A stretch of DNA of 64,000 bases from Thermococcus sp. 2319x1 (lineage in GTDB: Archaea; Methanobacteriota_B; Thermococci; Thermococcales; Thermococcaceae): NCBI RefSeq assembly GCF_001484685.1, contig NZ_CP012200.1:490321-554320 (forward strand), given 5' to 3'. This document shows positions 21,773-38,467 of the stretch, in pieces. The notes below the pieces were generated by a model, which was given only the letters and a program-made list of their open reading frames with translations, was not told where the DNA came from and ran no database searches. The position numbers and the translations under genes were made by a program. Position 1 is the first letter of the stretch. Each line of letters starts with the position of its first letter.

Positions 21773-21802
21773 AACCTTTGGTTAAAAACAAGACTTTTTA
21801 TA
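21773..21802 (+). promoter_or_regulatory. SurR site and TATA box of the mbh operon
   Basis: 21773-21789 reads AACCTTTGGTTAAAAAC, an exact match to the reverse of the SurR consensus GTTn3AACn5GTT. TTTTTATA at 21795-21802 is the TATA box, five bases further on. In Pyrococcus furiosus SurR activates mbh from sites upstream of the TATA/BRE when sulfur is absent; the geometry here is the same. The roughly 330-base gap before mbhA (21590-21921) holds this promoter, the TRAM promoter and an AT-rich leader, and nothing else I can name. Confidence 0.75.
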
Positions 21803-21921
21803 CCTTTATTGTTAATTTAGACCTTTACAAAAGCCTTTTAAAAGAAATTGTTGAAATCTATATCGACAGAAGTAAAAACTGGTGAGAATTTGAGCCTAAA
21901 TTGAAATTCGGGGTGGGAAAA

Positions 21922-22422
21922 ATGAGTTTCATTGTTGCATTTATATGGTCGTTCATGCTCTGGCTTGTACTTACAGCAGGCACTAAGGGGATGCTCTGGA
22001 GCACAGAAGAGGTGATAGCAGGAAGTATATTCGCCACGATAATTGGGTTTTCAACAAGGAACATCGTAGGAGAAAAGACACAGAGATTTCTAAATCCAGT
22101 AAAATGGGTTGGGTTTATTGTTTATGCATTGGGTCCCCTCTTCTGGGGAATGGTAAAGGCAAATTTAGACGTTGCTTATAGAGTGATTACCGGAAAGATA
22201 AAACCTGGAATTGTTAGAGTGCCAGTCGATCTTGAAAATGAGGCTCAATACACTATCTTAAGCAATTCGATTACCCTCACTCCCGGAACTCTGACTGTAG
22301 ATGCCTGTCCAGAAGAAAAAGCCCTCTACGTTCATTGGATTTATGTAAAAGAAGAAGAGCCAAAAAGCTCTGAGCCTGTCGCAGGTTCTTTTGAAAAATG
22401 GGCAAGGAGGTTGGGGAGATGA
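21922..22422 (+). CDS. mbhA: MBH subunit A (MrpE-like)
   Basis: A 166-residue membrane protein like antiporter subunit MrpE: two N-terminal helices and a cytoplasmic tail with SNSITLTPGTLTVD near residue 120, the family signature. It opens the 14-gene mbh operon, whose product evolves H2 with reduced ferredoxin and pumps Na+. ATG 21922 is chosen for the GGGGTGGG ribosome binding site. Confidence 0.93.
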   Translation: MSFIVAFIWSFMLWLVLTAGTKGMLWSTEEVIAGSIFATIIGFSTRNIVGEKTQRFLNPVKWVGFIVYALGPLFWGMVKANLDVAYRVITGKIKPGIVRVPVDLENEAQYTILSNSITLTPGTLTVDACPEEKALYVHWIYVKEEEPKSSEPVAGSFEKWARRLGR

Positions 22423-22682
22423 TTTTTAGTGAATTTTTCTATGGAGCGATGGCAATCGCTCTTGGAGCATTTATAACTTTGATTCGCATTATGCTTGGCC
22501 CCAGTGTTCCCGATAGAGTTGTTGGCGTTGACACATTGAATACCCTTATTGTAGCTGGAATGGTTCTCCTGGGGGCGGCCTATGATAGAGTGATCTACAT
22601 CGATATAGCCATAGTCTACGCTTTGCTCAGTTACATAGGAACTTTGGTGATTGCAAAGTACCTTCAGGGGGGATTGGAGTGA
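22419..22682 (+). CDS. mbhB: MBH subunit B (MrpF-like)
   Basis: An 87-residue protein with three membrane helices and the MrpF signature RIMLGPSVPDRVVGVDTLNT. It is part of the Na+/H+ antiporter module. The start ATG 22419 overlaps the mbhA stop (ATGA) and follows AGGAGGTTGGGG. An ATG 21 bases earlier is in frame but lies inside mbhA. Confidence 0.92.
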   Translation: MIFSEFFYGAMAIALGAFITLIRIMLGPSVPDRVVGVDTLNTLIVAGMVLLGAAYDRVIYIDIAIVYALLSYIGTLVIAKYLQGGLE

Positions 22683-23044
22683 TTAAAAGCATAATTTACG
22701 TTTTTCTGGCAATTAGCATTACATTCAACTTACTTGGGAGCCTTTCACTTCACAGATTCCCTGATGTTTATACCCGACTACATGGAGCCACAAAGTGCAC
22801 AACTTTTGGAACAATATTTGCCGTTTTGGCTGTGATCGTTCATGCTGTTTGGCAGATAAGAGAAACGGGAGATCCAAAGTACCTCCAAATGGCATTGCAC
22901 AGCTTAGTTGCTCTGATATCTTTGATGCTTACAAATCCAACAGGAGCCCATGCAATAGCGAAAGCTGCCCATTTGAGCGGTTATAAACCAGCAAAGGCCG
23001 TTGTCGATGCCTATGAGAGGAAGCTGAGGGGTGGGGAAGCATGA
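22679..23044 (+). CDS. mbhC: MBH subunit C (MrpG-like)
   Basis: A 121-residue MrpG-like protein with three helices. The signature HRFPDVYTRLHGATKCTTFG (residues about 24-43) and TNPTGAHAIAKAAH are visible. It starts with GTG in a GTGA overlap with mbhB. Confidence 0.92.
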   Translation: MIKSIIYVFLAISITFNLLGSLSLHRFPDVYTRLHGATKCTTFGTIFAVLAVIVHAVWQIRETGDPKYLQMALHSLVALISLMLTNPTGAHAIAKAAHLSGYKPAKAVVDAYERKLRGGEA

Positions 23045-23307
23045 ACGTATTGAGCGTTGATATGGCAATTCAGGCGGGACTGCTTATTGGGATACTCCTA
23101 TCCTCATACTGGATGATAACCACAAGAGATTTGCTTTCAGCGGCTTTAGCCTCTGCAGCCATGAGTCTCCTTCTTAGTTTGGAATTCTATATGCTCCATG
23201 CACCAGACGTTGCCATAGCGGAAGCAGCAGTTGGTGCGGGTGTTGTTACTGCGATAGTTGTTTATGGAATCTCAAAAACTGAGAGATGGGAGCGTGAGGG
23301 TCCATGA
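23041..23307 (+). CDS. mbhD: MBH subunit D (MrpB N-part-like)
   Basis: An 88-residue protein with three helices and the motif [21 protein letters not shown], the conserved MbhD/MrpA C-terminal type region with an acidic membrane residue in DVAIAE used in ion transfer. ATGA overlap with mbhC. Confidence 0.9.
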   Translation: MNVLSVDMAIQAGLLIGILLSSYWMITTRDLLSAALASAAMSLLLSLEFYMLHAPDVAIAEAAVGAGVVTAIVVYGISKTERWEREGP

Positions 23308-23603
23308 GGAGGACTTTTGGAGCATTATCCTTGCTCTTCATATTCGGGATATTACTCCTAATCGCCAATCCAGATTATGGCTTAAAATTTGGTTTGGGAG
23401 GAGAAGAATGGCAAAAGTACCGCTACACCGACCAGTATTATATAGACAATGGTGTTGAAGAAGTGGGAGGAACTAACGTTGTTACCGACATAGTCTTTGA
23501 TTACAGAGGATACGATACCCTCGGAGAGGCAACTGTTCTTTTCACTTCAATAGCGGGAGCTGTTGCATTGCTTAGAAAATGGAGGGATGAGGATGAAGAA
23601 TGA
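23304..23603 (+). CDS. mbhE: MBH subunit E (MrpB-related)
   Basis: A 99-residue protein with an N-terminal helix, a polar external loop, [20 protein letters not shown] (the MrpA/B conserved DYRGYDTLGE block), then a final helix. It corresponds to the part of MrpA/MrpB ending in the same block. ATGA overlap with mbhD. Confidence 0.9.
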   Translation: MRRTFGALSLLFIFGILLLIANPDYGLKFGLGGEEWQKYRYTDQYYIDNGVEEVGGTNVVTDIVFDYRGYDTLGEATVLFTSIAGAVALLRKWRDEDEE

Positions 23604-24039
23604 CATGGGGCTTATAGTTAAAACAATGGCGAGGGCTACGATACCTCTTATTGGGATCTTTGGAGCTTACGTGATCTCTCATGGTCACCTCACCCCTGGA
23701 GGAGGTTTTCAGGGAGGAGCAACAATTGCTGGAGCAGGGATATTGTTCCTTATAGCATTTGGTATCAACGAGGCCAAGGAAAGGATAAACAAAAGCTTAT
23801 ATTCTGCCCTTGAGGGGTTAGGAGGACTGGTTTTTCTAGCAGCAGGCATGCTCGGCCTTGGTGTAGCGTTCTTTTACAACACATTATGGTACAACGGCCC
23901 GATTTTCAATGGAAAACCAGGTACACTTCTCTCAGCAGGTTATCTCCCAGTAATGAACTTGGCTGTGGGCTTAAAGGTTTATACTGGACTAGTGAGCGCC
24001 GTTTTTGCAATGGCCCTATTCAGGAGGTGGAGAAAGTGA
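23593..24039 (+). CDS. mbhF: MBH subunit F (MrpB-like)
   Basis: A 148-residue MrpB-like membrane protein with the signature [20 protein letters not shown] at about residues 27-46. ATG 23593 is preferred: GGAGGG at 23581-23586 is six bases upstream, and it overlaps the mbhE end. An earlier ATG at 23587 touches the ribosome binding site. Confidence 0.9.
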   Translation: MKNDMGLIVKTMARATIPLIGIFGAYVISHGHLTPGGGFQGGATIAGAGILFLIAFGINEAKERINKSLYSALEGLGGLVFLAAGMLGLGVAFFYNTLWYNGPIFNGKPGTLLSAGYLPVMNLAVGLKVYTGLVSAVFAMALFRRWRK

Positions 24040-24398
24040 TACCTCTCCAATTTGTTACGGCATTTTTAATGATCTTCATGGGAATCTATGCTTTCTTGTA
24101 CAAGAGGAACCTCATTAAGCTTATCTTAGCTCTCAATTTAATTGATGCGGGCATACACCTCTTGCTGATAAGTCTTGGATACAGATTGGAAAATGGAGTT
24201 TTACCCACGGCACCAATTTACACCGGCTATGAAACATTAAAGGGCACCCCAATGGTCGGCCCAATACCACAGGCTTTGGTGCTCACGAGCATAGTCATTG
24301 GAGTTTGTGTGCTTTCATTGGCAATGGCACTGACAATAAACGCCTACAGACACTACGGAACGCTTGATGTTAACAAGTTAAGGAGGTTGAGAGGATGA
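24036..24398 (+). CDS. mbhG: MBH subunit G (MrpC/NuoK-like)
   Basis: A 120-residue NuoK/MrpC-like protein with three helices. The block LIKLILALNLIDAGIHLLLI carries the acidic residue in helix 2, and PQALVLTSIVIGVCVLSLAMAL closes the family fold. It starts GTG in an overlap with mbhF. Confidence 0.92.
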   Translation: MIPLQFVTAFLMIFMGIYAFLYKRNLIKLILALNLIDAGIHLLLISLGYRLENGVLPTAPIYTGYETLKGTPMVGPIPQALVLTSIVIGVCVLSLAMALTINAYRHYGTLDVNKLRRLRG

Positions 24399-25978
24399 CG
24401 CTCCCGTTTCTGGTTATCCTTCCACTGTTTGGGGCATTTTCAATGCCAATAGTTAGCTTACTTGGGAAGAAACTTAAGGAGTATTGGGCGGTTATCATCA
24501 GCGGCGCTACATTTGCAGTTGCCGCTAAAGTATTTTACACGGTATGGAGAAACAATGAAATCCTTCTCTACACCCTTGGAAGCGATAATCCAATTGGTCG
24601 GGGGGTGGATTTCCCGATCAGGATTGTGTGGGAGGTAGATTTATTCGGGGCACTTTTAGCTTTAACGATAACTTTTGTGAGCTTTTTGGCGATAGTTTAT
24701 TCCCTCGGATATATGAAGCATGACACTGGCCTGGAGAAATACTATACATTAGTGCTCGTCCTGGAGCTGGGAATGCTGGGAGTTGTCATTACCGGGGATA
24801 TTTTCAACTTCTACGTATTTTTGGAGATAATGAGCATTGCAAGCTATGCTTTAGTTGCCTTCAGAAATGACACATGGGAAGGGATTGAAGCAGGAATCAA
24901 GTATATGTTTGTTGGTTCACTGGCGAGTTCCTTTATTCTCTTGGGCATTGCCCTGCTTTATGGCCAGTATGGAACGCTTACAATGAGCTATCTCGCAATA
25001 AAAATAGCCGAAAATCCAACACTTGTGGCAAAAGTAGCTTTAGCTTTCCTTATTGGTGGGCTGCTCTTTAAGAGTGGTGCGGTTCCGGTCCATATGTGGC
25101 TGGCTGATGCCCATCCGGCGGCTCCAAGTTCAATCTCTGCGATGCTCTCGGGATTAGTCATCAAAGCTGGTGGAGTTTACGCTATAGCAAGGATAATATT
25201 CAGCATTTTCAATCCCGGATTGCACATATACTTGAGAACATTTAATGCTCCCTCAGTCAATATGGACGTAATTGGCTGGATTATAGTGTTCTTTGCTTGC
25301 TTAACGCTTCTTGTGGGAAATGCCATGGCGGTGGTGCAGACTGACATGAAGAGGCTTTTTGCCTTCTCGAGTGTGGGGCAAATAGGGTATATCTTACTTG
25401 GAATTGGAATTGGAACCCTTGCGTATGGCACTAAGGTCGGAGAGCTTGCATTGGCTGGAGCAATATACCACATAGTGAACCACGCATTGATAAAAGCTCT
25501 CCTCTTCCTTGTGGCGGGAGTTGTTATCCATGAGGTTGGCACAAAGAACCTTAATGAATTGAGTGGACTGGCAAAAAGAATGCCATTGACGACGTTTTCC
25601 TTTACAATTGGAGCGGCTGCTATAATAGGCCTCCCACCGCTAAATGGATTTGCGAGCAAGTGGATCATTTACGAAAGCTCCGCCATGTATAATCCAATCT
25701 TAGCGGCCGTTGCAGTTTTGGGCACGGTGTTCTCCCTCGCTGCGTACACTAAAGTGCTCTTCACCTTCCTGGGCACTGAGAGTCATGCGGTGAGAAAAGC
25801 AAAAGAGCCAGAAAAGAGCATGATGTTTCCAATGTTAGTTCTTGTAGTTGCAATAACCGTGATGGGTCTCCTTCCATGGCAAATAAGCGACAAAATAATG
25901 ATACCGGCTGCAAAAATGCTCGAACAGCTCAATGGTGAGTACATACTTGCTCTCTTAAAATTCATTGGGGGTGCGTGA
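24395..25978 (+). CDS. mbhH: MBH subunit H (MrpD/NuoN-like antiporter)
   Basis: A 527-residue protein with about 14 helices and the core ion channel of the Na+ module. LELGMLGVVITGDIFNFYVFLEIMS holds the conserved Glu near residue 140; FLIGGLLFKSGAVPVHMWLADAHPAAPSS contains the key Lys and His near residue 225-235. It overlaps mbhG by ATGA. Confidence 0.95.
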   Translation: MTLPFLVILPLFGAFSMPIVSLLGKKLKEYWAVIISGATFAVAAKVFYTVWRNNEILLYTLGSDNPIGRGVDFPIRIVWEVDLFGALLALTITFVSFLAIVYSLGYMKHDTGLEKYYTLVLVLELGMLGVVITGDIFNFYVFLEIMSIASYALVAFRNDTWEGIEAGIKYMFVGSLASSFILLGIALLYGQYGTLTMSYLAIKIAENPTLVAKVALAFLIGGLLFKSGAVPVHMWLADAHPAAPSSISAMLSGLVIKAGGVYAIARIIFSIFNPGLHIYLRTFNAPSVNMDVIGWIIVFFACLTLLVGNAMAVVQTDMKRLFAFSSVGQIGYILLGIGIGTLAYGTKVGELALAGAIYHIVNHALIKALLFLVAGVVIHEVGTKNLNELSGLAKRMPLTTFSFTIGAAAIIGLPPLNGFASKWIIYESSAMYNPILAAVAVLGTVFSLAAYTKVLFTFLGTESHAVRKAKEPEKSMMFPMLVLVVAITVMGLLPWQISDKIMIPAAKMLEQLNGEYILALLKFIGGA

Positions 25979-25979
25979 A

Positions 25980-26327
25980 ATGTTTGGTTATTGGGATGCT
26001 CTCTATTTCCTTTATGCTTTCCTAATTGGTCTGTTGATCAGCTACCTACTCATGAAATGGGCGGAAAAAGTTAGCACTGGTACTAGGAGGGCAGGAGATG
26101 GAACGAAAATATACATTAGCGGTGAGGATCAGGACAAGGTTATTCCCCATTTTGAGCACCTTGAAGGTTACTTTACGGGGAGACATGTTATGTGGGGTTT
26201 GATAAGGGGAACCCACAGGATGTTTTTGATGTTTAGAAGGGAGCACACTGGCCTTCTTACAGATTATGTTGCATACCTATTGCTCACTGTGGCAATAGTG
26301 CTTGGAGCGCTCGTCATTGGGGGGTGA
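25980..26327 (+). CDS. mbhI: MBH subunit I
   Basis: A 115-residue protein with two helices (about 8-28 and 93-113) and a hydrophilic middle ending RGTHRMFLMFRREHTGLLTDY. In MBH it links the antiporter and hydrogenase modules. ATG 25980, after GGGGGTGCGTGAA; one base separates it from the mbhH stop. Confidence 0.88.
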   Translation: MFGYWDALYFLYAFLIGLLISYLLMKWAEKVSTGTRRAGDGTKIYISGEDQDKVIPHFEHLEGYFTGRHVMWGLIRGTHRMFLMFRREHTGLLTDYVAYLLLTVAIVLGALVIGG

Positions 26328-26331
26328 AGCT

Positions 26332-26802
26332 ATGGGTGAGAGAGAAATGCTTGAGAAAAAAATTTCAAAACTCTGCAAGTATCTTGGGAGATCGCCGTGG
26401 GTATTTCACGTTAACAGCGGTTCATGCAACGGATGTGACATTGAGATAATCGCCGCCCTCACACCTAGATACGATGCGGAGAGGTTTGGGATAAAACTCG
26501 TAGGAACCCCGAGACATGCGGATATCTTGTTGGTAACCGGTCCGGTTACAGACCAAAGCCTTGAAAGGGTTAAATTGATCTACGAGCAGACCCCCGATCC
26601 AAAGGTGGTTGTTGCCATAGGGGCATGCCCAACTGGTGGCAGCGTGTTTTTTGAGAGTCCCTTTACAAATGCCCCCTTAGACAAGCACATTCCGGTAGAC
26701 GTTTTTGTTCCGGGATGTCCTCCCAGGCCGGAGGCAATACTTTATGGTGTGGTTTTAGGGTTAGAAAAGCTCATAAAAAAGATAGAAGGTGAGAAAGAAT
26801 GA
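26332..26802 (+). CDS. mbhJ: MBH subunit J ([NiFe]-hydrogenase small subunit)
   Basis: A 156-residue protein holding the proximal [4Fe-4S] cluster. The cysteines are in SGSCNGCDIE (near residue 30), GACPTGG and VPGCPPRPEA. The length fits group-4 small subunits. ATG 26332 after GGGGGGTGAAGC; an upstream start would overlap mbhI. Confidence 0.95.
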   Translation: MGEREMLEKKISKLCKYLGRSPWVFHVNSGSCNGCDIEIIAALTPRYDAERFGIKLVGTPRHADILLVTGPVTDQSLERVKLIYEQTPDPKVVVAIGACPTGGSVFFESPFTNAPLDKHIPVDVFVPGCPPRPEAILYGVVLGLEKLIKKIEGEKE

Positions 26803-27320
26803 CCCCTGAAGAGTTCTTGGAGATAATTCTAACAAAATTCCCTAACGTTGAGGGAGAAATTCGTGAGAATAAGCTTCCCCATCCAAGAAAGAGGGTTTGG
26901 ATAAACGTCGAGAGAGAGAACTTCAAGGATCTTATGAAGCTTATCAAGGAGATAGACCCTAAGGCACAGTTTTCCATAATAATAGCCAGGGATGGAGGAG
27001 ATTACTTGGAGGCTAAATATCATCTTGAGCTGTTTTACGAGCAGACCCCGAGTATCTCGCTTATAGTCGGCACTAAATGCCCCAAGGATGACCCAAAACT
27101 TCCCACTGTTACAGATGTTTTTCCGAGTGCGCTTCCCTATGAGAGAGAAGTTCAGGAATTCTTGGGATTGTTCTTTGAGGGAATACCAGATCCAAGAAAG
27201 CTGTTTTTACCAGAAGACTTTCCAGAGGGCGTTTATCCTTTGAGAAAAGATGAGAAAGGTATTAGCAGTGGAATGGTAAAGAACGCAGGCCATCCTTACA
27301 AAATGAAAAAGGAGGGTTAA
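26799..27320 (+). CDS. mbhK: MBH subunit K (NuoC-like)
   Basis: A 173-residue hydrophilic protein similar to NuoC/Nqo5. The conserved C-terminal block VTDVFPSALPYEREVQEFLGLFFEGIPDPRKLFLPEDFPEG is recognisable. It supports the large subunit. ATGA overlap with mbhJ. Confidence 0.93.
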   Translation: MTPEEFLEIILTKFPNVEGEIRENKLPHPRKRVWINVERENFKDLMKLIKEIDPKAQFSIIIARDGGDYLEAKYHLELFYEQTPSISLIVGTKCPKDDPKLPTVTDVFPSALPYEREVQEFLGLFFEGIPDPRKLFLPEDFPEGVYPLRKDEKGISSGMVKNAGHPYKMKKEG

Positions 27321-27322
27321 GA

Positions 27323-28612
27323 ATGGAGAATAGAGTTGAATATTGGGTTAAAATCCCAATTGGTCCTATTCACCCAGCACTTGAAGAACCTGAAAAGTTC
27401 ATCATTACCCTCGATGGAGAAAGAATAGTAAATGTTGATGTAAAGCTTGGATACAACTTGAGAGGGGTAGAATGGATTGGCATGAGAAGAAATTACATCC
27501 AGATACTCTACCTTGCTGAAAGAATGTGTGGGATATGCTCTTTTTCTCACAACTATACGTATTCAAGGGCAGTCGAAGAGATGGCGGGGATAGAGGTACC
27601 AGAGAGAGCCGAATACATAAGGGTGATAGTAGGAGAACTGGAAAGAATCCACTCTCATTTGCTCAATCTCGGAGTTGTAGGGCATGCCATAGGCTATGAC
27701 ACTGTTCTCCACCTAGGCTGGCTTGCCAGGGAGAGGGTTATGGATCTCCTAGAGGCAATTGGGGGAAACAGGGTAAACTACTCTATGAACACAATTGGAG
27801 GCGTGAGGAGGGATATAGAAGAAAAACACAAGAGGGCAATTTTGGAGATGATAAAATACTACCGCGAAAAGGTCATGCCAAAGATTGAGGAAATATTCCT
27901 CTATGATCCAACTGTTGAAGCAAGGCTTAGAGATGCCGGGGTCATACCCAAGAGGATAGCCATTGAGTACAGCGCTCAAGGCCCAACGGCAAGGGGGAGT
28001 GGCGTTGAGAAGGACGTTAGGTACAACGAGCAGCTGGGAGTTTATCCAGATCTGGGAATTAAACCAGTAACTCCAAAGGAATTCACGGGGGTTATCAAGG
28101 GAGACGTGTTTGATAGGATGGTCGTCAGAGTTGGGGAACTGTGGCAGAGCATGGAGCTCATAGAGAGGGCTTTGGACCAGATGCCAGAAGGAAAAATAAA
28201 GGCATTTCCGAAGGACAACGTAACTCTGGTCAGACTTAAAAAAGCAGAAGGGGAAGGCGTAGGTAGGTATGAGGCCCCAAGAGGGGAGCTCATTCACTAT
28301 GTAATGGCCAACCCTGGAAGCGAAATTCCGGAAAGGTGGAAAATGAGAGAGCCCACTTTTCCAAACCTCTTTGCAGTTGCGAGGGCATTAGTGGGAGAAC
28401 AGCTTGCTGATGTTCCAGTTGCAATAGCGTCAATAGATCCCTGCCTGAGCTGTACAGATAGAGTGGCCGTTATAGATGCCAAAACCGGCAAGAAAAAAGT
28501 TCTTACAGAAAAAGATCTTCTCAAGGCTTCAATTGAGAAAACAAGAGAAATAAACCCCAACATAAAGGCAAAACCAGAACCCGTTGGGGGTTCTTGTGGG
28601 GGTGTTAGGTGA
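27323..28612 (+). CDS. mbhL: MBH subunit L ([NiFe]-hydrogenase large subunit)
   Basis: A 429-residue catalytic subunit. The [NiFe] ligands are Cys69/Cys72 (RMCGIC) and Cys374/Cys377 (DPCLSC), the standard four. The N-terminal GPIHPALEEPEKF and the sequence between the motifs match Pyrococcus furiosus MbhL closely as I remember it. It produces H2 with electrons from reduced ferredoxin. Two bases separate it from mbhK. Confidence 0.96.
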   Translation: MENRVEYWVKIPIGPIHPALEEPEKFIITLDGERIVNVDVKLGYNLRGVEWIGMRRNYIQILYLAERMCGICSFSHNYTYSRAVEEMAGIEVPERAEYIRVIVGELERIHSHLLNLGVVGHAIGYDTVLHLGWLARERVMDLLEAIGGNRVNYSMNTIGGVRRDIEEKHKRAILEMIKYYREKVMPKIEEIFLYDPTVEARLRDAGVIPKRIAIEYSAQGPTARGSGVEKDVRYNEQLGVYPDLGIKPVTPKEFTGVIKGDVFDRMVVRVGELWQSMELIERALDQMPEGKIKAFPKDNVTLVRLKKAEGEGVGRYEAPRGELIHYVMANPGSEIPERWKMREPTFPNLFAVARALVGEQLADVPVAIASIDPCLSCTDRVAVIDAKTGKKKVLTEKDLLKASIEKTREINPNIKAKPEPVGGSCGGVR

Positions 28613-29601
28613 TGAACATCGTTTATTTAACTTTGGGGCTAATAGCGATTTACCTTTACGTCTCCTTTGCTTCTCTCCTTTGGGAAGGAATAGATAGAAA
28701 GCTCGTTGCGAGAATGCAGAGAAGGATAGGCCCTCCGATACTCCAGCCGTTTTATGACTTCCTAAAGCTGGTAAGTAAGGAGTCCATAATCCCAAGAGAC
28801 GCCAATAGACTCTTTGAAATCGCCCCAATATTAGCATTAGCCTCTTCAATAGCCCTCTTGGCTTACACTCCTCTTGGATTTGAGCCACTCCTAGCAACAA
28901 AGGGTGATGTGATAGTTTTCATTTATTTACTCGGCCTCATAGCCTTCATAAGGGTAATGGGTGCCGTTAGCTCAGGCTCTCCATACGCACAAATAGGGGC
29001 TCAGAGAGAGATAATTATGCTCGTTTCCAGGGAAGTGCCCATGATGCTGGGACTCTTTGCAATACTCTGGCGCTTAAGCAAGCTCGGAGTTGAAAAACCC
29101 TTTAGCTTGGGAACACTTTATCAGTACAACATCTGGGAAATTGGTACTCCTTTGACAGTCGTCGGTATATTTGTTCTTCTCCTAGTGTTCTTGCTCTGGC
29201 TTGCGAGTGAGATTGAGGTTGGTTACTTCAACATTCCAGAGGCAGAAACAGAAGTTGCAGAGGGGCCTATGGCAGAATACAGCGGAAGACATTTGGCATT
29301 ATTCAAGCTAAGCAATGCTCTGAAAGAATTCGCGAGTGCCAGTTTGGTTGTGGCTATCTTTCTCCCATGGGGTATAAGCGGGCACATCGGTTTAACCGGT
29401 GTTGCAGCAATGGTTCTTGATCTAATCTTCCACACGCTTAAAGTTTTTGCAGTGCTTTTTGTTAGTATGAGCGTATTTAGGGCTATAACTGGAAGACTCA
29501 GGATTACACAGGCAGTTGGCATGTTCTGGAGCAGGATACTTCCAATGAGTCTAATAGGTGTATTGTTGTTGATCATAGACGTTCTGGGGGTGATTTCATG
29601 A
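28612..29601 (+). CDS. mbhM: MBH subunit M (NuoH-like)
   Basis: A 329-residue membrane protein like NuoH, anchoring the peripheral arm. ARMQRRIGPPILQPFYDFLKL and GAQREIIMLVSREVP are family signatures; PEAETEVAEGPMAEYSGRH is the acidic loop at the interface. ATG 28612 overlaps the mbhL stop by one base (TGATG). Confidence 0.95.
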   Translation: MNIVYLTLGLIAIYLYVSFASLLWEGIDRKLVARMQRRIGPPILQPFYDFLKLVSKESIIPRDANRLFEIAPILALASSIALLAYTPLGFEPLLATKGDVIVFIYLLGLIAFIRVMGAVSSGSPYAQIGAQREIIMLVSREVPMMLGLFAILWRLSKLGVEKPFSLGTLYQYNIWEIGTPLTVVGIFVLLLVFLLWLASEIEVGYFNIPEAETEVAEGPMAEYSGRHLALFKLSNALKEFASASLVVAIFLPWGISGHIGLTGVAAMVLDLIFHTLKVFAVLFVSMSVFRAITGRLRITQAVGMFWSRILPMSLIGVLLLIIDVLGVIS

Positions 29602-30167
29602 AGATTCCCCCAACTCTCTCCGTAGTTTTAAGCAACCTCTTCAAAAAGCCTGCAACAAATCCCTTCCCCCAGAATGATCCAGTTCCAACTCCAGAGGGAT
29701 TCAGGGGAAAACTAGTTTATCACGTGGATAAGTGTATAGGCTGTAAGCTTTGTATCACAGTTTGCCCGGCAGGAGTGTTTGAATATGTGCCGGAACTCAA
29801 AAAGGTGACCCTCTGGCTGGGAAGATGTGTCTTCTGCCAGCAGTGTGTTGATGTTTGTCCAGTAAATGCACTTGAGATGAGCAGTGAGTTTCTCTTGGCT
29901 ACTTACGATAAATACGATGATAACCTCAGATGGCTTAAAAATGAGGAAATTGAAGAGATGCTTGCCAGACAGGGAGGAAAAACAAAGAAGTATCGCATAA
30001 TTGCAGAGAAATGTAAGGGATGTACACTGTGTGCCAGAAACTGTCCACAAAATGCTATTGAAGGCTCGCCTGGAAAGGTGCATAGGGTTGATCCCAGTAA
30101 GTGCGTTGGTTGTGGAATATGTGCAACGGTATGTCGCTTTGGTGCAATAGAAGAATACGAAGAGTGA
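29598..30167 (+). CDS. mbhN: MBH subunit N with four [4Fe-4S] motifs
   Basis: A 189-residue ferredoxin-like subunit. The first two cluster motifs, Cys46/49/52/56 and Cys77/80/83/87, are the usual MbhN/NuoI pair. After a linker (about 100-135) a second ferredoxin domain follows, with Cys139/142/145/149 and Cys169/172/175/179. In P. furiosus MBH, MbhN holds only two clusters. The extra domain resembles the C-terminal ferredoxin region of NuoF/HydB-type proteins (KCKGCTLCARNCP, then KCVGCGICATVCR), so it may be an added electron entry. ATGA overlap with mbhM. Confidence 0.92.
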   Translation: MKIPPTLSVVLSNLFKKPATNPFPQNDPVPTPEGFRGKLVYHVDKCIGCKLCITVCPAGVFEYVPELKKVTLWLGRCVFCQQCVDVCPVNALEMSSEFLLATYDKYDDNLRWLKNEEIEEMLARQGGKTKKYRIIAEKCKGCTLCARNCPQNAIEGSPGKVHRVDPSKCVGCGICATVCRFGAIEEYEE

Positions 30168-30332: not shown

Positions 30333-30366
30333 GTTTTTAACCTTTTGTTAAAGAAACGTATTTAAT
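30333..30366 (+). promoter_or_regulatory. SurR site and candidate TATA of the second Mbh-like operon
   Basis: 30333-30349 reads GTTTTTAACCTTTTGTT, an exact GTTn3AACn5GTT. TATTTAAT at 30359-30366 is one TATA candidate, nine bases after the site; TTTATATT at 30312-30319 is another, before it. The choice decides whether SurR would activate or block. The 278-base gap 30168-30445 contains this and an AT-rich leader; I see no gene. Confidence 0.7.
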
Positions 30367-30445
30367 GGATTTTAGACAAGCAGATAATGGAGACAGTTTG
30401 AAATATGCTCTTAAAAGGTTTAAAACCTAAAGTTGAGGTGGGAGA

Positions 30446-30949
30446 ATGTCCTTTACGACATCTTTCCTATGGTCGTTGATTGTGTACCTGATCTTAACAG
30501 CAGGCTCCGGTAGTGTTTTACTATGGAGTCCGGAAGAACTAGTGGCGGGAATTGTAATAGCAGCTCTCATAGGCTACTCAACGAGAAACATAATGGACGA
30601 AAGACTTGATTATTTCTTCAATCCAAAACGATGGGTGCTTTTTCTGATTTATGCAATAGGGCCGTTCTTTTATGCTATGGCAAAGGCAAACCTTGACGTT
30701 GCCTACAGAGTTATAACCGGGAATATAAGGCCGGGTATAGTGAAAATATCTCCCGGGCTAACAAGAGATGAAAGCAGGACTCTTCTTGCAAATTCAATAA
30801 CCCTCACTCCTGGAACGTTTACTTTGGAAATTGATGATGAAGGAAACCTATACGTTCACTGGATTAACGTTCCACCTGGAAAAGAAAAGCCAACCCCCGA
30901 AGAGCTCTGCGGCTATTTACCAAAGTGGGCAAGGAGGATTGCGGAATGA
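30446..30949 (+). CDS. Second complex, subunit A (MrpE-like)
   Basis: A 167-residue MrpE-like protein, closely parallel to mbhA (LTAGSGSVLLWSPEELVAG; ANSITLTPGTFTLEID). It begins the second 14-gene antiporter-hydrogenase operon, arranged like mbh. Ribosome binding site TTGAGGTGGGAG. The paralogy with mbhA indicates duplication of the module. Confidence 0.9.
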   Translation: MSFTTSFLWSLIVYLILTAGSGSVLLWSPEELVAGIVIAALIGYSTRNIMDERLDYFFNPKRWVLFLIYAIGPFFYAMAKANLDVAYRVITGNIRPGIVKISPGLTRDESRTLLANSITLTPGTFTLEIDDEGNLYVHWINVPPGKEKPTPEELCGYLPKWARRIAE

Positions 30950-31221
30950 TGCCTGAAAGTTTGTTTATGGGGGCAATGATACTGCTCTTCCTTTCAGCCA
31001 CATTAACGATGATAAGAATGCTAATTGGCCCAACAATCCCTGACAGGGTTGTGGCATTGGATGCCCTAACAACCACTACTGCCGGTGCCATGGTTCTCTA
31101 TGGGGTAATTACGGAGCAGGCGGTGATTATCGATGTTGCACTTGTCTATGCAGTCCTTAGCTATATTGCAACCCTGTATATAGCGAGGTACTTAGTAAAG
31201 AGGAGGGTGGGATTGGCATGA
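30946..31221 (+). CDS. Second complex, subunit B (MrpF-like)
   Basis: A 91-residue MrpF-like protein with three helices and RMLIGPTIPDRVVALDALTT. It begins within the previous stop (ATGATG), where 30946 or 30949 may be used, after AGGAGG. Confidence 0.9.
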   Translation: MMPESLFMGAMILLFLSATLTMIRMLIGPTIPDRVVALDALTTTTAGAMVLYGVITEQAVIIDVALVYAVLSYIATLYIARYLVKRRVGLA

Positions 31222-31574
31222 TAGAAGGAGTTTTGGCTATACTTCTTGCAATCGGAGTTGGGTTTAATCTACTGGCCAGCGTTGGAATACTGAGGTTTCC
31301 AGACGTTTACACAAGGATCCACGCCTCGACAAAATGTACTACCTTTGGAACGATTTTCATAGTCCTGGCAGCGGTAGTGTACTCAATTTACAGGTGGCTT
31401 CCAAGCCATGATGCAAGATGGATTACAATAGGAATCCACTCGGCACTTGTGGTGATCTTCTTAGTACTAACAAACCCCGTTGGAGCCCATGCAATTGGTA
31501 GAGCAGCTAGAAAATCCGGGATAAGGCCTTATGGTGCCGTAATAGATGAACTGGAGGGATACTATGAACTTTGA
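31218..31574 (+). CDS. Second complex, subunit C (MrpG-like)
   Basis: A 118-residue MrpG-like protein with RFPDVYTRIHASTKCTTFG and TNPVGAHAIGRAARK. Overlaps the gene before it by ATGA. It parallels mbhC. Confidence 0.9.
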   Translation: MIEGVLAILLAIGVGFNLLASVGILRFPDVYTRIHASTKCTTFGTIFIVLAAVVYSIYRWLPSHDARWITIGIHSALVVIFLVLTNPVGAHAIGRAARKSGIRPYGAVIDELEGYYEL

Positions 31575-31827
31575 AAACTTCTTCTGGATTCTGCAAATCT
31601 TCATTGCAATCGGCCTAGTGGGAAGCTCAATAGCTGCCATTAGGTTCAAAAACTTAATTGCTGCTGTAATAGCAATGGCAGTCTTCAGCTTGGCCCTTTC
31701 CGTGGAGTTCTACGTTCTACAAGCTCCAGACGTTGCTATAGCGGAAGCGGGTGTTGGAGCCGGGCTCACAACGGCGATGTACCTTCTTGCCATCAAAAAC
31801 ACCACCGATGAGGAGGTGGTAGAATGA
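31564..31827 (+). CDS. Second complex, subunit D
   Basis: An 87-residue membrane protein parallel to mbhD, with [23 protein letters not shown] 31564 is chosen because GGAGGG at 31554-31559 is suitably placed; it overlaps the end of the previous gene by 11 bases. Confidence 0.88.
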
Positions 31828-32099
31828 GAAGAGCGCTCGGATTATTTGCGTTCTTGTCGTTCATAATCTTCCTTCTGGCTGCAGCTATAAGCTTGAGACC
31901 TTTTGGGGAACCTCCCCATGCGGAGATGGACACTTACTTCATAGAGCATGCCCAAGAAGAAGCCTCTGCAAACAACGTTGTTACGAGTGTTGTATTTGAC
32001 TACAGAGGTTTTGATACCCTTGGAGAGGCAACGGTCCTTTTCACCGCAGTTTCTGGGGTTCTAATGGTGTTAAGACACTACGGGGGGAAGGAGAAATGA
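31824..32099 (+). CDS. Second complex, subunit E (MrpB-related)
   Basis: A 91-residue protein parallel to mbhE with an N-terminal helix, [20 protein letters not shown] and a final helix. ATGA overlap. Confidence 0.88.
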
Positions 32100-32563
32100 C
32101 CACCACAATCATAAGAACAACAACAAAAATCTTAGCACCTTTAATACTGGTGTTTGGGTCTTATATTATTTTGCATGGACACCTCACCCCCGGTGGAGGT
32201 TTTCAAGGTGGAGCCGTGTTTGCAAGCGGCTTAGCCCTGCTGATAGTGGCAAACAACAAAGAAAAGGTCAAGGAACTATTCGATAAGGTTCCTCTAAGTC
32301 AGTTAGAAAGCCTTGGAGCTTTGGGATTCTTGGGAATTGGTGCATTAGGCCTTATGGGATATACGTTCTTGAAAAACGTAATTGCAAACAGCGGATTCCT
32401 CTTTGGAGCACCAACACCTAAAGGAATCAATCCGGGTTATCTCAACACCGGTGGAACGCTTTCATACCTAAACATCTTTGTAGGAACGAAGGTATTAGCC
32501 GGTCTTACAAGTATAGTTCTGATCTTCTTCCTTATACTGAGGAGGGAGAGAGATGAATGGTAG
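32096..32563 (+). CDS. Second complex, subunit F (MrpB-like)
   Basis: A 155-residue MrpB-like protein with [20 protein letters not shown] at about residues 23-42. It overlaps both neighbours (ATGA before, 11 bases after). Confidence 0.9.
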
Positions 32564-32918
32564 TGTCTTTGTGAACTTCCCGTTTATCGTAGTTGCAGTG
32601 CTGCTTGCGCTCGGCTTTTACACAATCGGATTCAAGCGGAACCTCATAAAGGTCGTAATTGGTATTGAAATCCTTGAAGGAGCGGTAAATATGTTCATTG
32701 TTGCGTTAGGTTATGTAAAAGGTGGCTACGCTCCAATCTATACTCAGGCACCGCCTGAAGCTGCAGGAAAAATGGTTTTACCAACGCCACAGGCACTAAC
32801 GCTTACGAGCATAGTTATCGGTGTTGCTGTAACCGCTCTAATGCTGGCTTTTGCCGTTAACATCTACAAACACTATGGAACTCTCGACGTTACCAAGATA
32901 AGGAGGTTGAGAGGATGA
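32553..32918 (+). CDS. Second complex, subunit G (MrpC/NuoK-like)
   Basis: A 121-residue NuoK/MrpC-like protein with FKRNLIKVVIGIEILEGAVN (acidic residues in helix 2) and PQALTLTSIVIGVAVTALML. ATG 32553 follows GGAGGGAGAG. Confidence 0.9.
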   Translation: MNGSVFVNFPFIVVAVLLALGFYTIGFKRNLIKVVIGIEILEGAVNMFIVALGYVKGGYAPIYTQAPPEAAGKMVLPTPQALTLTSIVIGVAVTALMLAFAVNIYKHYGTLDVTKIRRLRG

Positions 32919-34468
32919 TTGAGCACTTACCTGCTTTAATGATTGCCGTTCCTCTATTTGGAGCATTTACAGCACCCCTATTTAAGAAACACTACAAGGG
33001 AGTTTCAATATGGGCAATCATAATAACCGGCATAACTGTAATCTTATCCCTCCTGCTTGCCAAGGAAGTGGTTACCGGGGGAATAATGGTCTACGTTTTT
33101 GGAGCGGACAAGCCAACCCTTGTTCTACCTTCTGGTTACTCTGTTCCAATAAGGATTATGTTTGAAGTAGACGCTATGAGTGCCTTTATGGCAATATCCG
33201 CAACGCTGATGAGTTTTATAGGGGCTCTCTACTCCTCCAGCCATGTAGAGGGAGAGACAGGTCTTGAGAAGTACTATGCCCTGTTAATGCTCCTTGAGGT
33301 GGGAATCCTTGGCATGGTGCTTACGGGAGATCTCTTCAACCTCTTCGTGTTCCTGGAAATAGCGGGTATAGCCGGATCAGCGTTGGTAGGATTTAGGAAC
33401 TATCGCGGTGAAGCAAGCGAAGCGGGAATAAAATACCTTATTGTTAGTGCTGTAGCCTCTTTAATGGTGCTCTTTGCAATAGGTATACTCTATGGACAGT
33501 ACGGAAACTTAAACCTCGCATACATAGCCAAGAACGTGTCCTTTAACATGGTTGACATGATTGCGCTTGGATTGCTCTTTACGTCCTTTGCAATGAAATG
33601 TGGTGCCGTCCCAATGCACTACTGGGTGCCGGATGCATATACAGAGGTTCCAACTGGAATAAACCCACCCCTCCTGGTAGCGACTTATGCAAGCCTTTAT
33701 GCCCTCTTTAGGGTGAGCTTCACACTCTTTGCGAATATTGTAGTGGATTTGGCAAGGGTAGGGTGGATCATGTCTATCATAGGAGTGCTTACAATGTTCA
33801 TAGGCGTTACAATGGCTCTGGTGCAGAAGGATGTCAAGAGATTAATGAGCTACCACGCTATATCTCAGACCGGCTATATGCTTCTTGGTGTCGGCGTTGG
33901 TTTGACGGTCTTACACGATCCTTCAAAGCTCGCTGAGTTCGGAAGAGATGCCATGGCCGGTGGAGTGTTCCACATAATAAACCACATCATCTACAAAAGC
34001 TTACTCTTGATGACCGCTGGAGCCTTGTTCTACGTTACGGGTACGAGGAACCTTAATGAAATGGGAGGCTTGGCCAGAAAGATGCCCGTAACTACGATAA
34101 GCTTCATGGTGGGAGCCGCTGCGATATCCGGTTTGCCACCGTTTAACGGATTTGCAAGCAAGCTTCTCATATATGAGACGTCATACCGGCTTAATCCCCT
34201 CCTAACGGTGTTTGCAATGGTTACCAGTGTTTTAACTCTGGCTTCCTTCGTCAAGGTATTTGCATCGGCTTTCCTCGGTCCTCCGCTTGAAAAGTTTGAG
34301 AGTGCAAGAGAGGTTCCCGGGCCAATGGTAATTGCAATGATAATCCTGGCAGCGCTTTGTATAATATTTGGTCTCTTCCCGAACTTGGTGCTTGACAAGC
34401 TTGTTTATCCGGCAGTTGATGCGTTAATCAACTTTGCTCAATACCACAGCTGGGGTGGTCTGGCATGA
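32915..34468 (+). CDS. Second complex, subunit H (MrpD-like antiporter)
   Basis: A 517-residue, about 14-helix antiporter subunit. LEVGILGMVLTGDLFNLFVFLEIAG carries the conserved Glu; LLFTSFAMKCGAVPMHYWVPDAYTEVP has the key Lys and His but differs from mbhH at the following loop (TEVPTGINPPLLVATYAS). This divergence recalls MBX/MBS-type complexes, which however carry two H genes; only one is present here. Confidence 0.92.
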   Translation: MIEHLPALMIAVPLFGAFTAPLFKKHYKGVSIWAIIITGITVILSLLLAKEVVTGGIMVYVFGADKPTLVLPSGYSVPIRIMFEVDAMSAFMAISATLMSFIGALYSSSHVEGETGLEKYYALLMLLEVGILGMVLTGDLFNLFVFLEIAGIAGSALVGFRNYRGEASEAGIKYLIVSAVASLMVLFAIGILYGQYGNLNLAYIAKNVSFNMVDMIALGLLFTSFAMKCGAVPMHYWVPDAYTEVPTGINPPLLVATYASLYALFRVSFTLFANIVVDLARVGWIMSIIGVLTMFIGVTMALVQKDVKRLMSYHAISQTGYMLLGVGVGLTVLHDPSKLAEFGRDAMAGGVFHIINHIIYKSLLLMTAGALFYVTGTRNLNEMGGLARKMPVTTISFMVGAAAISGLPPFNGFASKLLIYETSYRLNPLLTVFAMVTSVLTLASFVKVFASAFLGPPLEKFESAREVPGPMVIAMIILAALCIIFGLFPNLVLDKLVYPAVDALINFAQYHSWGGLA

Positions 34469-34806
34469 GCTTTACACTTACTACCCCTTCGGGATTTTGG
34501 AATCCACTCCTATGGCTGGTATTCTTGGCCCTCTTCGGCATAATAGCCTATCTGATATACTCCCAGGGCAACCCCTCGTATAAGAAGGATACCGAGCAGA
34601 TAAAGCCCTATTTGAGCGGTAATCCAGAGCCTACAAAGGAGAAAATCCAGGTAAAGGCTGGAGACATCTATTGGGGATTCATTGAGGCTTTGAAAGGATA
34701 CTACAAAGTACTCCAAGCAATCCATACTGGGGACATGAGGGATTACATCTTGTGGTACCTCGGCGTTGGGGCTATAATAACATTCATACTAATTGGAGGG
34801 GTGTAA
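34465..34806 (+). CDS. Second complex, subunit I
   Basis: A 113-residue protein with two helices and a hydrophilic middle (GDIYWGFIEALKGYYKVLQAIHTGD), the positional counterpart of mbhI though little alike in sequence. ATGA overlap with subunit H. Confidence 0.82.
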   Translation: MSFTLTTPSGFWNPLLWLVFLALFGIIAYLIYSQGNPSYKKDTEQIKPYLSGNPEPTKEKIQVKAGDIYWGFIEALKGYYKVLQAIHTGDMRDYILWYLGVGAIITFILIGGV

Positions 34807-34807
34807 T

Positions 34808-35254
34808 ATGGGCAAGCTGACCAATTTTAAGCGCTCTCTTTGGGTTTTCCATGCTTCAGGGGGTTCATGCAACGCATGTGATATTGAAATAGTGGCTGTG
34901 CTTACCCCAAGATACGATGCAGAGAGGTTTGGGATAAAGCTTGTCGGTTCCCCAAGACATGCGGATGTTTTACTTGTCACGGGAGCTATTCCAAGAGACT
35001 TTGCCGACAAGCTTAGGCGCATCTACGAGCAAATGCCAGATCCAAAGGCCGTTGTTGTAATAGGAAACTGCGGAACCACGGGGGGAGTTTTTTACGACTC
35101 CTACAACATAGCCGGACCAATAGATGAGGTAATACCTGTGGACGTCTATGTTCCAGGGTGTCCTCCAAGGCCAGAAGCAATAATAGACGGAATTGTAAAG
35201 GCATGGCTCAAGATTGAGAAGCTTGAAAAGGAGCTGGAGGGGAAGAAAGAATGA
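34808..35254 (+). CDS. Second complex, subunit J ([NiFe]-hydrogenase-like small subunit)
   Basis: A 148-residue small subunit. Cysteines SCNACD (near residue 18), GNCGTTGG and VPGCPPRPEA provide the proximal [4Fe-4S] ligands. Differences from mbhJ (GGSCNACDIEIVAVLTP; NCGTTGGVFYDSYN) make this a distinct lineage. In MBS the corresponding cluster is the proposed sulfane-reduction site. ATG 34808 follows GGAGGGGTG. Confidence 0.9.
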   Translation: MGKLTNFKRSLWVFHASGGSCNACDIEIVAVLTPRYDAERFGIKLVGSPRHADVLLVTGAIPRDFADKLRRIYEQMPDPKAVVVIGNCGTTGGVFYDSYNIAGPIDEVIPVDVYVPGCPPRPEAIIDGIVKAWLKIEKLEKELEGKKE

Positions 35255-35811
35255 CGCTAACAACTGAAGAAATCCTTGAGAGGTTAAAGGAAAAACTTGG
35301 AGATGCGATATTAAACTATGAGGTAAAGGAATACAAGATGGGTGTTAAAAGACCCAGAACCTATCGGGAAATCTGGATGGAGATTAACAAAGATGCCTTT
35401 AGGAAAGCAGTTGAGGCGATATTCGAAATAGACTATCCGCATTTGCACTTTATAGCCGGAGAAGACGTTGGCGAGGTAATCAAGGTGATATACTCTTTCG
35501 GAGTCTTCCACTCCCACCCATGGGGTGAAGTGAGCATAGTGATGAAGCTTGACCTCCCGAAGAACAACCTTGTTCTCCCCACGATAACGGATCTTATGAT
35601 TGGTGCAGAGACCAATGAGAGGGAAATCAGAGAAATGCTTGGCATTGAGTTTGAGGGACTTAAGAACAAGAGACACCTCTTTTTACCAGACGACTGGCCC
35701 GAAGGAAAGTATCCATGGAGGAGAGATGAGTATGGAGTTGAAGACATGATCAAACACACCCATAAAAGTGTAAAAGAAATTAGAAAGCAGAGGGGTGGGC
35801 AGAATGGCTAA
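35251..35811 (+). CDS. Second complex, subunit K (NuoC-like)
   Basis: A 186-residue NuoC-like protein with ITDLMIGAETNEREIREMLGIEFEG and RHLFLPDDWPEGKYPWRRDEYG. It overlaps subunit J by ATGA and subunit L by eight bases. Confidence 0.9.
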   Translation: MTLTTEEILERLKEKLGDAILNYEVKEYKMGVKRPRTYREIWMEINKDAFRKAVEAIFEIDYPHLHFIAGEDVGEVIKVIYSFGVFHSHPWGEVSIVMKLDLPKNNLVLPTITDLMIGAETNEREIREMLGIEFEGLKNKRHLFLPDDWPEGKYPWRRDEYGVEDMIKHTHKSVKEIRKQRGGQNG

Positions 35812-37042
35812 AACAACTTACTACGTTCCCATTGGCCCAATTCATCCGGCATTAAAAGAACCAATAAGAGTGGAGGCGGAGGTTGAGGGAGAGAGGATAG
35901 TGAAGGTTGACGTTAAGAGGGGCTTTGCCCACAGGGGAATTGAGTACATGGGAATGAAGAGGAACGCCATCCAGACGCTTTACCTCTCGGAGAGGATATG
36001 TGGGATATGCTCTATATCTCACCCCTATGCATTCGTCATTGGCAGCGAAAAGGCTTTAGGCATTGAGGCTCCCCCAAGAGCCCAGTACATAAGGACAATA
36101 ATAGCCGAGCTTGAGAGAATTCACTCCCACATACTCTGGCTTGGAGTTATAGCACACGAGATAGGTTTTGACCCGCTCCTCTTCTGGACATGGAAGGGAA
36201 GGGAGAAGGTTCTTGATGTTCTTGAAGCCATAACGGGCAACAGGATAAACTACTCCATGTACATGATTGGAGGGGTCAGGAGGGATTTGAAGGAGAGTCA
36301 CATAAAAGCCTTGAGAGAAATGATAACTTACTATTGGGAGTTCACAGAGCACATGAAGGAAGTCTTCTTGTCTGATCCGGTTTATAAGGCAAGGACAAGG
36401 GGGGTAGCACAGCTCTCAAAGGAGATGGCATTGAAGCTCAACGTAGTCGGGCCAACAGCGAGAGCGGCCGGCTTAAGGATGGACATTAGGCAGGATATTC
36501 CATACGATGCCTATGCGGATATGGACATTAAGGCGGTTGTTCCTCAAGACATAGTGGGAGAGGCAAGGGGAGATGCTTATGATATTACAATGGTGAGGCT
36601 TTACGAGATTGAGCAGAGTTTGGATATAATAGAATTCTGCCTTGACAACCTTCCAGAAGGAAAGATACTTGCAATTCCAAACTATGTGGCTTTGCTTAAC
36701 AAGATCAAAAAGACCGAGGGGGAGGCAATCGGAGCACATGAAGCTCCGAGAGGAGAAGTTATCCACTACTTCAAGTACGATGGGACAAGGGATGGTCCAG
36801 CGGTCTGGAAGGTCATAGCTCCAAGCTACAACAACATAAATTCATGGGCGCCATTGTTGCTTGGAGCAGAGGTTGCTGATATTCCGGTAGTTGTGGCATA
36901 CATAGACCCATGTATGTGCTGTAACGACAGGGTAGCTGTCGTGAAGGATTCGAGCGGAAGAATTCTTGATTACTCCTACTTACACAGAAAAGCTGTAGAA
37001 AAAACCAAAAAACTTGAAAAAGAGTTGGGGGTGAGGAGATGA
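35804..37042 (+). CDS. Second complex, subunit L ([NiFe]-hydrogenase-like large subunit)
   Basis: A 412-residue catalytic-type subunit. Both cysteine pairs that bind nickel in hydrogenases are present: Cys66/Cys69 (RICGIC) and Cys370/Cys373 (DPCMCC, with an extra Cys at 372). VYIGP-type N-terminus reads VPIGPIHPALKEPIRVEA. Sequence diverges from mbhL in SISHPYAFVIGSEKAL and the C-terminal tail. Whether it evolves H2 or reduces sulfur compounds cannot be settled from sequence by eye. ATG 35804 after GGGGTGGGCAG. Confidence 0.92.
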   Translation: MAKTTYYVPIGPIHPALKEPIRVEAEVEGERIVKVDVKRGFAHRGIEYMGMKRNAIQTLYLSERICGICSISHPYAFVIGSEKALGIEAPPRAQYIRTIIAELERIHSHILWLGVIAHEIGFDPLLFWTWKGREKVLDVLEAITGNRINYSMYMIGGVRRDLKESHIKALREMITYYWEFTEHMKEVFLSDPVYKARTRGVAQLSKEMALKLNVVGPTARAAGLRMDIRQDIPYDAYADMDIKAVVPQDIVGEARGDAYDITMVRLYEIEQSLDIIEFCLDNLPEGKILAIPNYVALLNKIKKTEGEAIGAHEAPRGEVIHYFKYDGTRDGPAVWKVIAPSYNNINSWAPLLLGAEVADIPVVVAYIDPCMCCNDRVAVVKDSSGRILDYSYLHRKAVEKTKKLEKELGVRR

Positions 37043-38007
37043 CCCCCGAAACTCTCTTTTACGCTATAGGGATGCCAATAATTGGAGTATTCCTCGGATT
37101 GGTGTACAAGGGTATTGACAGACGGGTTTCAGCAAGAATGACATCGAGAATAGGGCCCCCAATAAGACAGCCCTTCTGGGACGTTGGAAAGCTTCTCCTT
37201 AAAGAAACAGTTGTACCGGAAAACGCGGTAAGATGGATCTTCAACGCAATGCCTATCTTGGCATTTGCTTCATCAATGACTCTCCTCCTTTATATCCCAT
37301 TCGGCATCTTAAAGGCACCCTTAGAAGGATACGGTGATCTGGTAGTGATTTTATACCTCTTAACTCTCCAGGCGCTTGCAATGGCCATTGGAGGATTTGC
37401 CTCGGGCAGCCCGTTTTCTTCAGTGGGAGCACAGAGAGAAATGGTTCTAATGATGAGCTACGAAATGCCCTTTGCAATAGTTATAACAGGCTTTGCTCTA
37501 ATCTACAAAAGCTTTTCGTTGAGCACAATAGCCTCTACCCCCGTATGGAGCATTGTAGGTCCTTTGGGAGGATTGGGCGTTCTATTGCTCTTGATAGCAT
37601 TTCTATGGGTAACTCCAGCAGAGCTTGCAAAGCTCCCTTTTGATATAGCAGAGGCCGAGACGGAAATAGCAGAGGGTATGCTTGCAGAGTATAGCGGGAG
37701 AAATCTTGCCTTGTTCTACCTTTCAGATGCAGTTAGGGGCTTTGCCATGATAGCAATAGAGGTGGTCTTATTCTTCCCCTTCACGTTGAGCTACCTCTTT
37801 GGCTTGAATCTCTCGGGAGCGGCTCTCTATATAGCTGAAAGTCTGTGGTTCCTCTTCAAAGTGCTGGTGCTTTATATTCTAGTAGTAACGCTGGTCAGGA
37901 CATCCTTCGCGAGGTTCAGGATAGAGCAGGCATCGAGGATCTTTTGGGTATATGTGAACATAATAGCCCTGCTTGGACTTTTGCTGATATGGGCGGAGGT
38001 GATGTGA
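37039..38007 (+). CDS. Second complex, subunit M (NuoH-like)
   Basis: A 322-residue NuoH-like membrane protein with ARMTSRIGPPIRQPFWDVGKL, GAQREMVLMMSYEMP and AEAETEIAEGMLAEYSGRN. It follows L directly (ATGA overlap), the MBH order; in MBX operons M lies before J. Confidence 0.93.
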   Translation: MTPETLFYAIGMPIIGVFLGLVYKGIDRRVSARMTSRIGPPIRQPFWDVGKLLLKETVVPENAVRWIFNAMPILAFASSMTLLLYIPFGILKAPLEGYGDLVVILYLLTLQALAMAIGGFASGSPFSSVGAQREMVLMMSYEMPFAIVITGFALIYKSFSLSTIASTPVWSIVGPLGGLGVLLLLIAFLWVTPAELAKLPFDIAEAETEIAEGMLAEYSGRNLALFYLSDAVRGFAMIAIEVVLFFPFTLSYLFGLNLSGAALYIAESLWFLFKVLVLYILVVTLVRTSFARFRIEQASRIFWVYVNIIALLGLLLIWAEVM

Positions 38008-38008
38008 A

Positions 38009-38467
38009 ATGCCAACAAAAGCAATGTTCCTAATGATAAAACAGATGCTTCAGAGGCCGTTCACAAATCCATTTCCAGTAAAGCACGCTCCAAAAGACGT
38101 AACATCACTCATTGAAAAGATCCAAAAAGGGGAAGTGAAGATATATCCCCCCGTCCCTGTTCCGGAAGGATTTAGAGGGAAGCTGCACTACGATCCCGAG
38201 AGGTGCATTGGGTGCAGGCTGTGTATAATGGTATGCCCTGCAAATGCTATGGAATGGATCCCGGAGCTTGGGAAAATAAGGCACTATGTTTCCCGCTGTA
38301 TGTTTTGTGCCCTCTGTGTAGACGTCTGTCCAGGCAAAAAGTTTCCAGGAGAGGAGAAGGCTGTGAAGGCACTCTCCATGAGTGAAGAATTCCTCATTGC
38401 TGACTACGACAAGTACAGCGACAACCTTATAGAGGAACCTCCCGAAGCTAAGGAAAAAGGTATTTAG
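38009..38467 (+). CDS. Second complex, subunit N (two [4Fe-4S] ferredoxin-like)
   Basis: A 152-residue NuoI-like subunit with two cluster motifs, CIGCRLCIMVCP and CMFCALCVDVCP (near residues 65-75 and 96-107). It lacks the second ferredoxin domain of the mbhN in this window. It starts two bases after subunit M and ends the operon. Confidence 0.92.
   Translation: MPTKAMFLMIKQMLQRPFTNPFPVKHAPKDVTSLIEKIQKGEVKIYPPVPVPEGFRGKLHYDPERCIGCRLCIMVCPANAMEWIPELGKIRHYVSRCMFCALCVDVCPGKKFPGEEKAVKALSMSEEFLIADYDKYSDNLIEEPPEAKEKGI

Follow-up and report, generated by a model that had tools for sequence, protein, structure and literature searches.

Mbh, a simple ion-pumping respiratory complex, serves as a model of how complex I originated, and three clusters have been described along its electron path. 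In the P. furiosus enzyme, ferredoxin docks on the MbhN subunit and the electrons cross three clusters to reach the [NiFe] site (PMC11228991). The C-terminal domain of the StnB and HydB subunits has been described as a putative ferredoxin-binding site (PMC10482914); the C-terminal domain of HydB was seen in two positions in T. maritima HydABC (PMC9499530). Two adjacent MBH operons have been published for T. barophilus (PMC12162507), and such pairs are also on record in P. pacificus, T. sibiricus and Thermococcus sp. 4557 (PMC6981617). In the accessible texts covered, no published description of extra clusters in MbhN was found.

Tandem mbh operons and the four-motif MbhN

The window, i.e. the whole stretch of 64,000 nucleotides from Thermococcus sp. 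2319x1 that was analyzed, holds two complete tandem Mbh operons, each comprising mbhA–N: Mbh1 (21901–30167) and Mbh2 (30446–38467; Table 1). Operon 1 exhibits the fourteen-gene mbhA–N order expected for Mbh, with the Mrp-type genes first and mbhN last, and its other genes are orthologous to those of canonical Mbh. Both MbhN proteins fall above the cut-off of the Mbh/NuoI-like subfamily NF006221 (NCBIfam), with operon 1 MbhN scoring 216.6 bits against a cut-off of 124. The identity of the MbhL CxxC pairs as [NiFe] ligands follows the previous assignment (PMC11228991). We treated the four motifs in MbhN as a variant feature of the Mbh-type group 4 [NiFe] hydrogenase and not as a family-defining one. 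The listed open reading frame over mbhG of operon 1 (23886–24398) begins well upstream and overlaps mbhF, and the real mbhG start probably lies near 24050. The long SurR motif GTTn3AACn5GTT was detected upstream of both operons, with one site before mbh1 and two before mbh2; for T. barophilus, a canonical SurR site is reported for mbh2 only (PMC12162507).

Table 1 Features of the tandem mbh operons and of the operon 1 MbhN (positions within the window)
Feature	Position	Strand	Remarks
SurR-type motif before mbh1	21773-21789	-	match to GTTn3AACn5GTT
mbhA-M, operon 1	21901..29601	+	remainder of the hydrogenase, recipient of MbhN electrons
MbhJ, operon 1	26302..26802	+	small subunit; next cluster in the chain
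MbhL, operon 1	27323..28612	+	[NiFe] large subunit, two CxxC pairs (MCGIC..., DPCLSC...)
mbhN, operon 1	29598..30167	+	189 aa, four [4Fe-4S] motifs
N-terminal NuoI-type 2[4Fe-4S] domain	29598..29918	+	residues 1-107
Linker	29919..29990	+	residues 108-131; predicted helix 115-124; 24-27 aa in relatives
Added HydB/NfnB-type 2[4Fe-4S] domain	29991..30164	+	residues 132-189, 58 residues
SurR-type motifs before mbh2	30333-30349, 30418-30434	+	match to GTTn3AACn5GTT
mbh2 A-N, second operon	30446..38467	+	its MbhN 38009-38467 has two motifs

The MbhN of operon 1 contains exactly four CxxCxxCx3C motifs, formed by Cys46/49/52/56, Cys77/80/83/87, Cys139/142/145/149 and Cys169/172/175/179, and the MbhN of operon 2 contains two only. 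The first-pass annotation had read two extra [4Fe-4S] motifs in the former and none in its paralog at 38009, and both readings hold. Its statement that the P. furiosus subunit has only two clusters is likewise in line with our data, as the P. furiosus MbhN (6cfw_N, 139 aa) aligns to residues 5–124 only (E 6e-58) and ends before the added domain. In the structure library 6cfw_N comprises 121 of its 139 residues, and the C-terminal tail, the attachment point of the added domain, is presumably among the unmodelled residues. Pfam analysis of the operon 1 MbhN yielded Fer4-type domains only.

Across 18 aligned diverged genomes, 35 of the 58 positions of the added domain are invariant, including all eight cysteines. 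The median dN/dS amounted to 0.051 in the added domain, 0.039 in the N-terminal domain and 0.079 in the linker; judged from the value of about 0.05, purifying selection on the added domain is strong. Both chance motifs and a frameshift fusing two genes were rejected on the basis of this conservation and the dN/dS. The linker varies in length (24–27 aa) and is less conserved than the domains, retaining some conserved residues. In the AlphaFold model of MbhN (mean pLDDT 72) the added domain reached a pLDDT near 90; the N-terminal part and the linker were poorly defined, with residues 100–112 below 50, and the model gave no reliable relative placement of the two domains.

Relatives of the added domain and its distribution in the family

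The isolated domain found its best PDB matches in T. maritima HydB (8e-16), the NADH dehydrogenase B subunit 9bov, subunit B of Rnf, and NfnB, and Foldseek superimposed it on the HydB/NfnB/StnB chains 9bp5_B, 7q4v_B and 8oh5_B with an rmsd of 0.8–1.0 Å over 58 columns. Its identity to the C-terminus of T. maritima HydB amounts to 60% (53% with cysteines excluded), compared to 35% (24% with cysteines excluded) to the N-terminal domain of the same MbhN, and an internal duplication of the latter was rejected on these values. As judged from the sequence comparisons, it is most closely related to the ferredoxin-like domains at the C-termini of HydB, NfnB and StnB, bearing out the resemblance to the C-terminal region of NuoF/HydB-type subunits that had been noticed at the outset. 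MbhN has this terminal domain alone in common with HydB/NuoF-type subunits and is devoid of the FMN/NAD-binding 51-kDa domain. Among the Thermococcaceae, genomes such as G078, G022 and G002 encode a HydB/NfnB-type protein of ~600 residues, adjoining a partner of ~950–970 residues, with a C-terminus 55–58% identical to the added domain. The source of the domain was likely a HydB/NfnB-type gene of this kind, either archaeal or bacterial. No such gene was detected in the window's genome (E 1e-9) or in the seven of seven sister-genus genomes with the domain.

The search for this architecture among Thermococcales MbhN that the first-pass annotation had proposed was carried out on 94 genomes of the family, followed by a check of the sequences. 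The four-motif form was found in 21 of them as a property of a clade: in 13 of 13 genomes of g1, the genus of the window, in seven of seven genomes of a sister genus (g5), and in one of three g2 genomes, a Palaeococcus-type genome. It is absent from g3 (Pyrococcus-type), from all genomes with a match in g4, the largest Thermococcus genus group, from G001 and from g6. The presence of the same four motifs in all close relatives, which the initial reading had named as counting against it, therefore applies to the genus (13/13) and to the sister genus (7/7), and is not shared by the remaining family members. All 21 genomes keep the same eight extra cysteines, which are invariant across the 18 aligned. 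Four-motif MbhN is hence a clade-wide variant of a known enzyme, occurring in at least 21 genomes, and a form unique to the window's genome was rejected. One g1 genome (G074, L118) retains the four-motif Mbh1 and has no detected second Mbh operon, so that a need of the domain for Mbh2 was not seen; nor was a need for NfnABC, as the domain is present where no NfnB-type gene was detected. In G078, a frameshift near residue 117 interrupts the operon 2 MbhN (L122, 16818–17272), which reads as 118 aa, with the rest of its C-terminal tail in another frame and all eight cysteines preceding the break; this frameshift may be genuine or may stem from an error in sequencing.

In a tree built for 51 genomes on five concatenated Mbh1 subunits, the four-motif forms fell at three positions inside the tandem-type clade: one together with the two-motif G047, one comprising the whole of g1, and one formed by g5 as sister to the two-motif g4/G001 group. 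On this tree the four-motif pattern corresponds to three changes. A single clade of four-motif forms was disfavoured (p-AU 0.012, from a quick tree and a two-tree test), and the N-terminal domain is by itself too short to distinguish a single four-motif clade from several. Because the added domain is clearly homologous in all carriers, one gain at the base of the clade followed by two losses would be the simplest reading, with the transfer of the gene end by recombination as the alternative history. The domain seems dispensable, as it has apparently been lost in two lineages of the clade. The MbhN proteins of the shortened relatives bear lysine-rich C-terminal tails, and within residues 1–125 only two positions are consistently changed between the shortened and the four-motif forms. 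We read this as a sign that electron entry through the N-terminal domain by itself would still work. By tblastn, nothing recognisable as a remnant of the domain turned up downstream of the shortened mbhN genes, where the matches lay inside MbhN genes or neighbouring Fe-S genes. The domain was also not seen as a separate split-off gene in the relatives without it, whose best matches were NfnB-type or IorA-type proteins of about 600–650 residues.

A candidate docking and relay arm and its alternatives

Starting from the observed architecture, conservation, domain relationship and clade distribution, we consider it reasonably probable that the added domain equips Mbh1-type MbhN with a further arm for ferredoxin docking and relay, which may be mobile. 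Cluster occupancy, docking, mobility, and the flow and direction of the electrons we infer as follows. The HydB/NfnB-type 2[4Fe-4S] domain, joined to the MbhN C-terminus via a short linker, would act as a landing pad for the usual carrier, reduced ferredoxin, and would pass the electron on to the two clusters of the NuoI-type domain, the MbhJ cluster and finally the [NiFe] site. The predicted wire would thereby comprise five clusters instead of three, and direct docking of ferredoxin on the N-terminal domain would probably still be possible. An arm for the same carrier is the economical reading in view of the role described for the HydB/StnB domain together with the docking of ferredoxin on P. 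furiosus MbhN.

The first-pass annotation had instead suggested a different donor, for which the domain would form a docking site, e.g. a bifurcating NfnABC-type complex, a 2-oxoacid oxidoreductase or a formate dehydrogenase. In T. kodakarensis, mbh is adjoined by genes for formate dehydrogenase and for extra Fe-S proteins (PMC12016516), indicating that other redox modules occur next to Mbh in Thermococcales. Within the window, however, no donor gene is located in or beside operon 1, and since no NfnB-type gene was detected in the window's genome and in seven sister-genus carriers, an NfnB partner is not required. The nearest homologous domains, those of HydB and StnB, are moreover proposed ferredoxin sites, and ferredoxin already docks on the P. 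furiosus subunit (PMC11228991). The proposal of another donor thus found no support, and we regard it as quite unlikely. The domain could alternatively represent a tethered intramolecular ferredoxin or electron reservoir, which would be loaded by ferredoxin and swing to the N-terminal domain without a fixed wire. The linker is variable and less conserved, and the homologous domain was observed in two positions in HydABC (PMC9499530), both of which are consistent with such a movement; the linker nevertheless contains a predicted helix and some conserved residues, and the sequence is equally compatible with a fixed position, leaving this an unlikely explanation.

A relic of little function, i.e. 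a fused domain that was kept by chance and is being lost, would agree with the two losses inferred within the clade. With a dN/dS near 0.05 and 35 of 58 positions invariant in 18 diverged genomes, including all eight cysteines, we consider it highly improbable. Going beyond the docking and relay arm, the added domain might constitute a second electron port that is also able to run outward. This appears distinctly improbable to us; if true, Mbh1 would trade electrons at two places, the N-terminal domain for free ferredoxin and the added domain for another, docked enzyme, creating a switchable branch point on a complex-I-type enzyme.

A clade that has apparently gained, and partly lost, a ferredoxin-docking module would offer a natural experiment on changing the electron entry of a respiratory complex. 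As Mbh1 with the domain and Mbh2 without it coexist in one genome, the effect of the domain is directly testable in T. barophilus, for which deletion mutants of these operons exist (PMC12162507).

Comparison with related complexes

Searching genome contigs, we found Ech hydrogenase operons encoding four-motif EchF-type subunits in gut Firmicutes (L044, L046, L047, L098) and in an Abditibacteriota genome (L051). Like the MbhN described here, these are NuoI-type subunits that belong to a group 4 hydrogenase and have a second two-cluster domain appended. The VDRxxKxW segment, however, occurs in both their first and their added domain, suggesting that the latter originated separately, probably by internal duplication. 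A Methanomethylophilaceae genome contains an Fpo-like (complex-I-like) operon in which the I subunit (L048, 3649–4305) is likewise NuoI-type with four [4Fe-4S] motifs, differing in the complex to which it belongs and in the spacing of the added motifs. The four-motif architecture has thus arisen more than once, which weakens a claim of uniqueness and strengthens the case for a real function; comparable additions in the Ech and Fpo-like complexes point to a solution that recurs.

Compared with the closest described subunit, P. furiosus MbhN (6CFW chain N), the operon 1 protein has the same operon position and the same NuoI-type two-cluster domain, whereas the P. furiosus protein ends in a short tail without a second two-cluster domain, with three clusters from ferredoxin to the [NiFe] site. 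With the C-terminal domains of HydB, NfnB and StnB (PDB 7P5H, 9N5U, 8OH5) the added domain shares the 58-residue 2[4Fe-4S] fold and the common pattern CKGCxLCAxxCPxxAI...CxxCGxCxxxCxFxAI. In those systems the domain terminates the flavoprotein of a bifurcating complex, whereas in MbhN it is fused to a ferredoxin-type hydrogenase subunit encoded in an operon without a flavin subunit.
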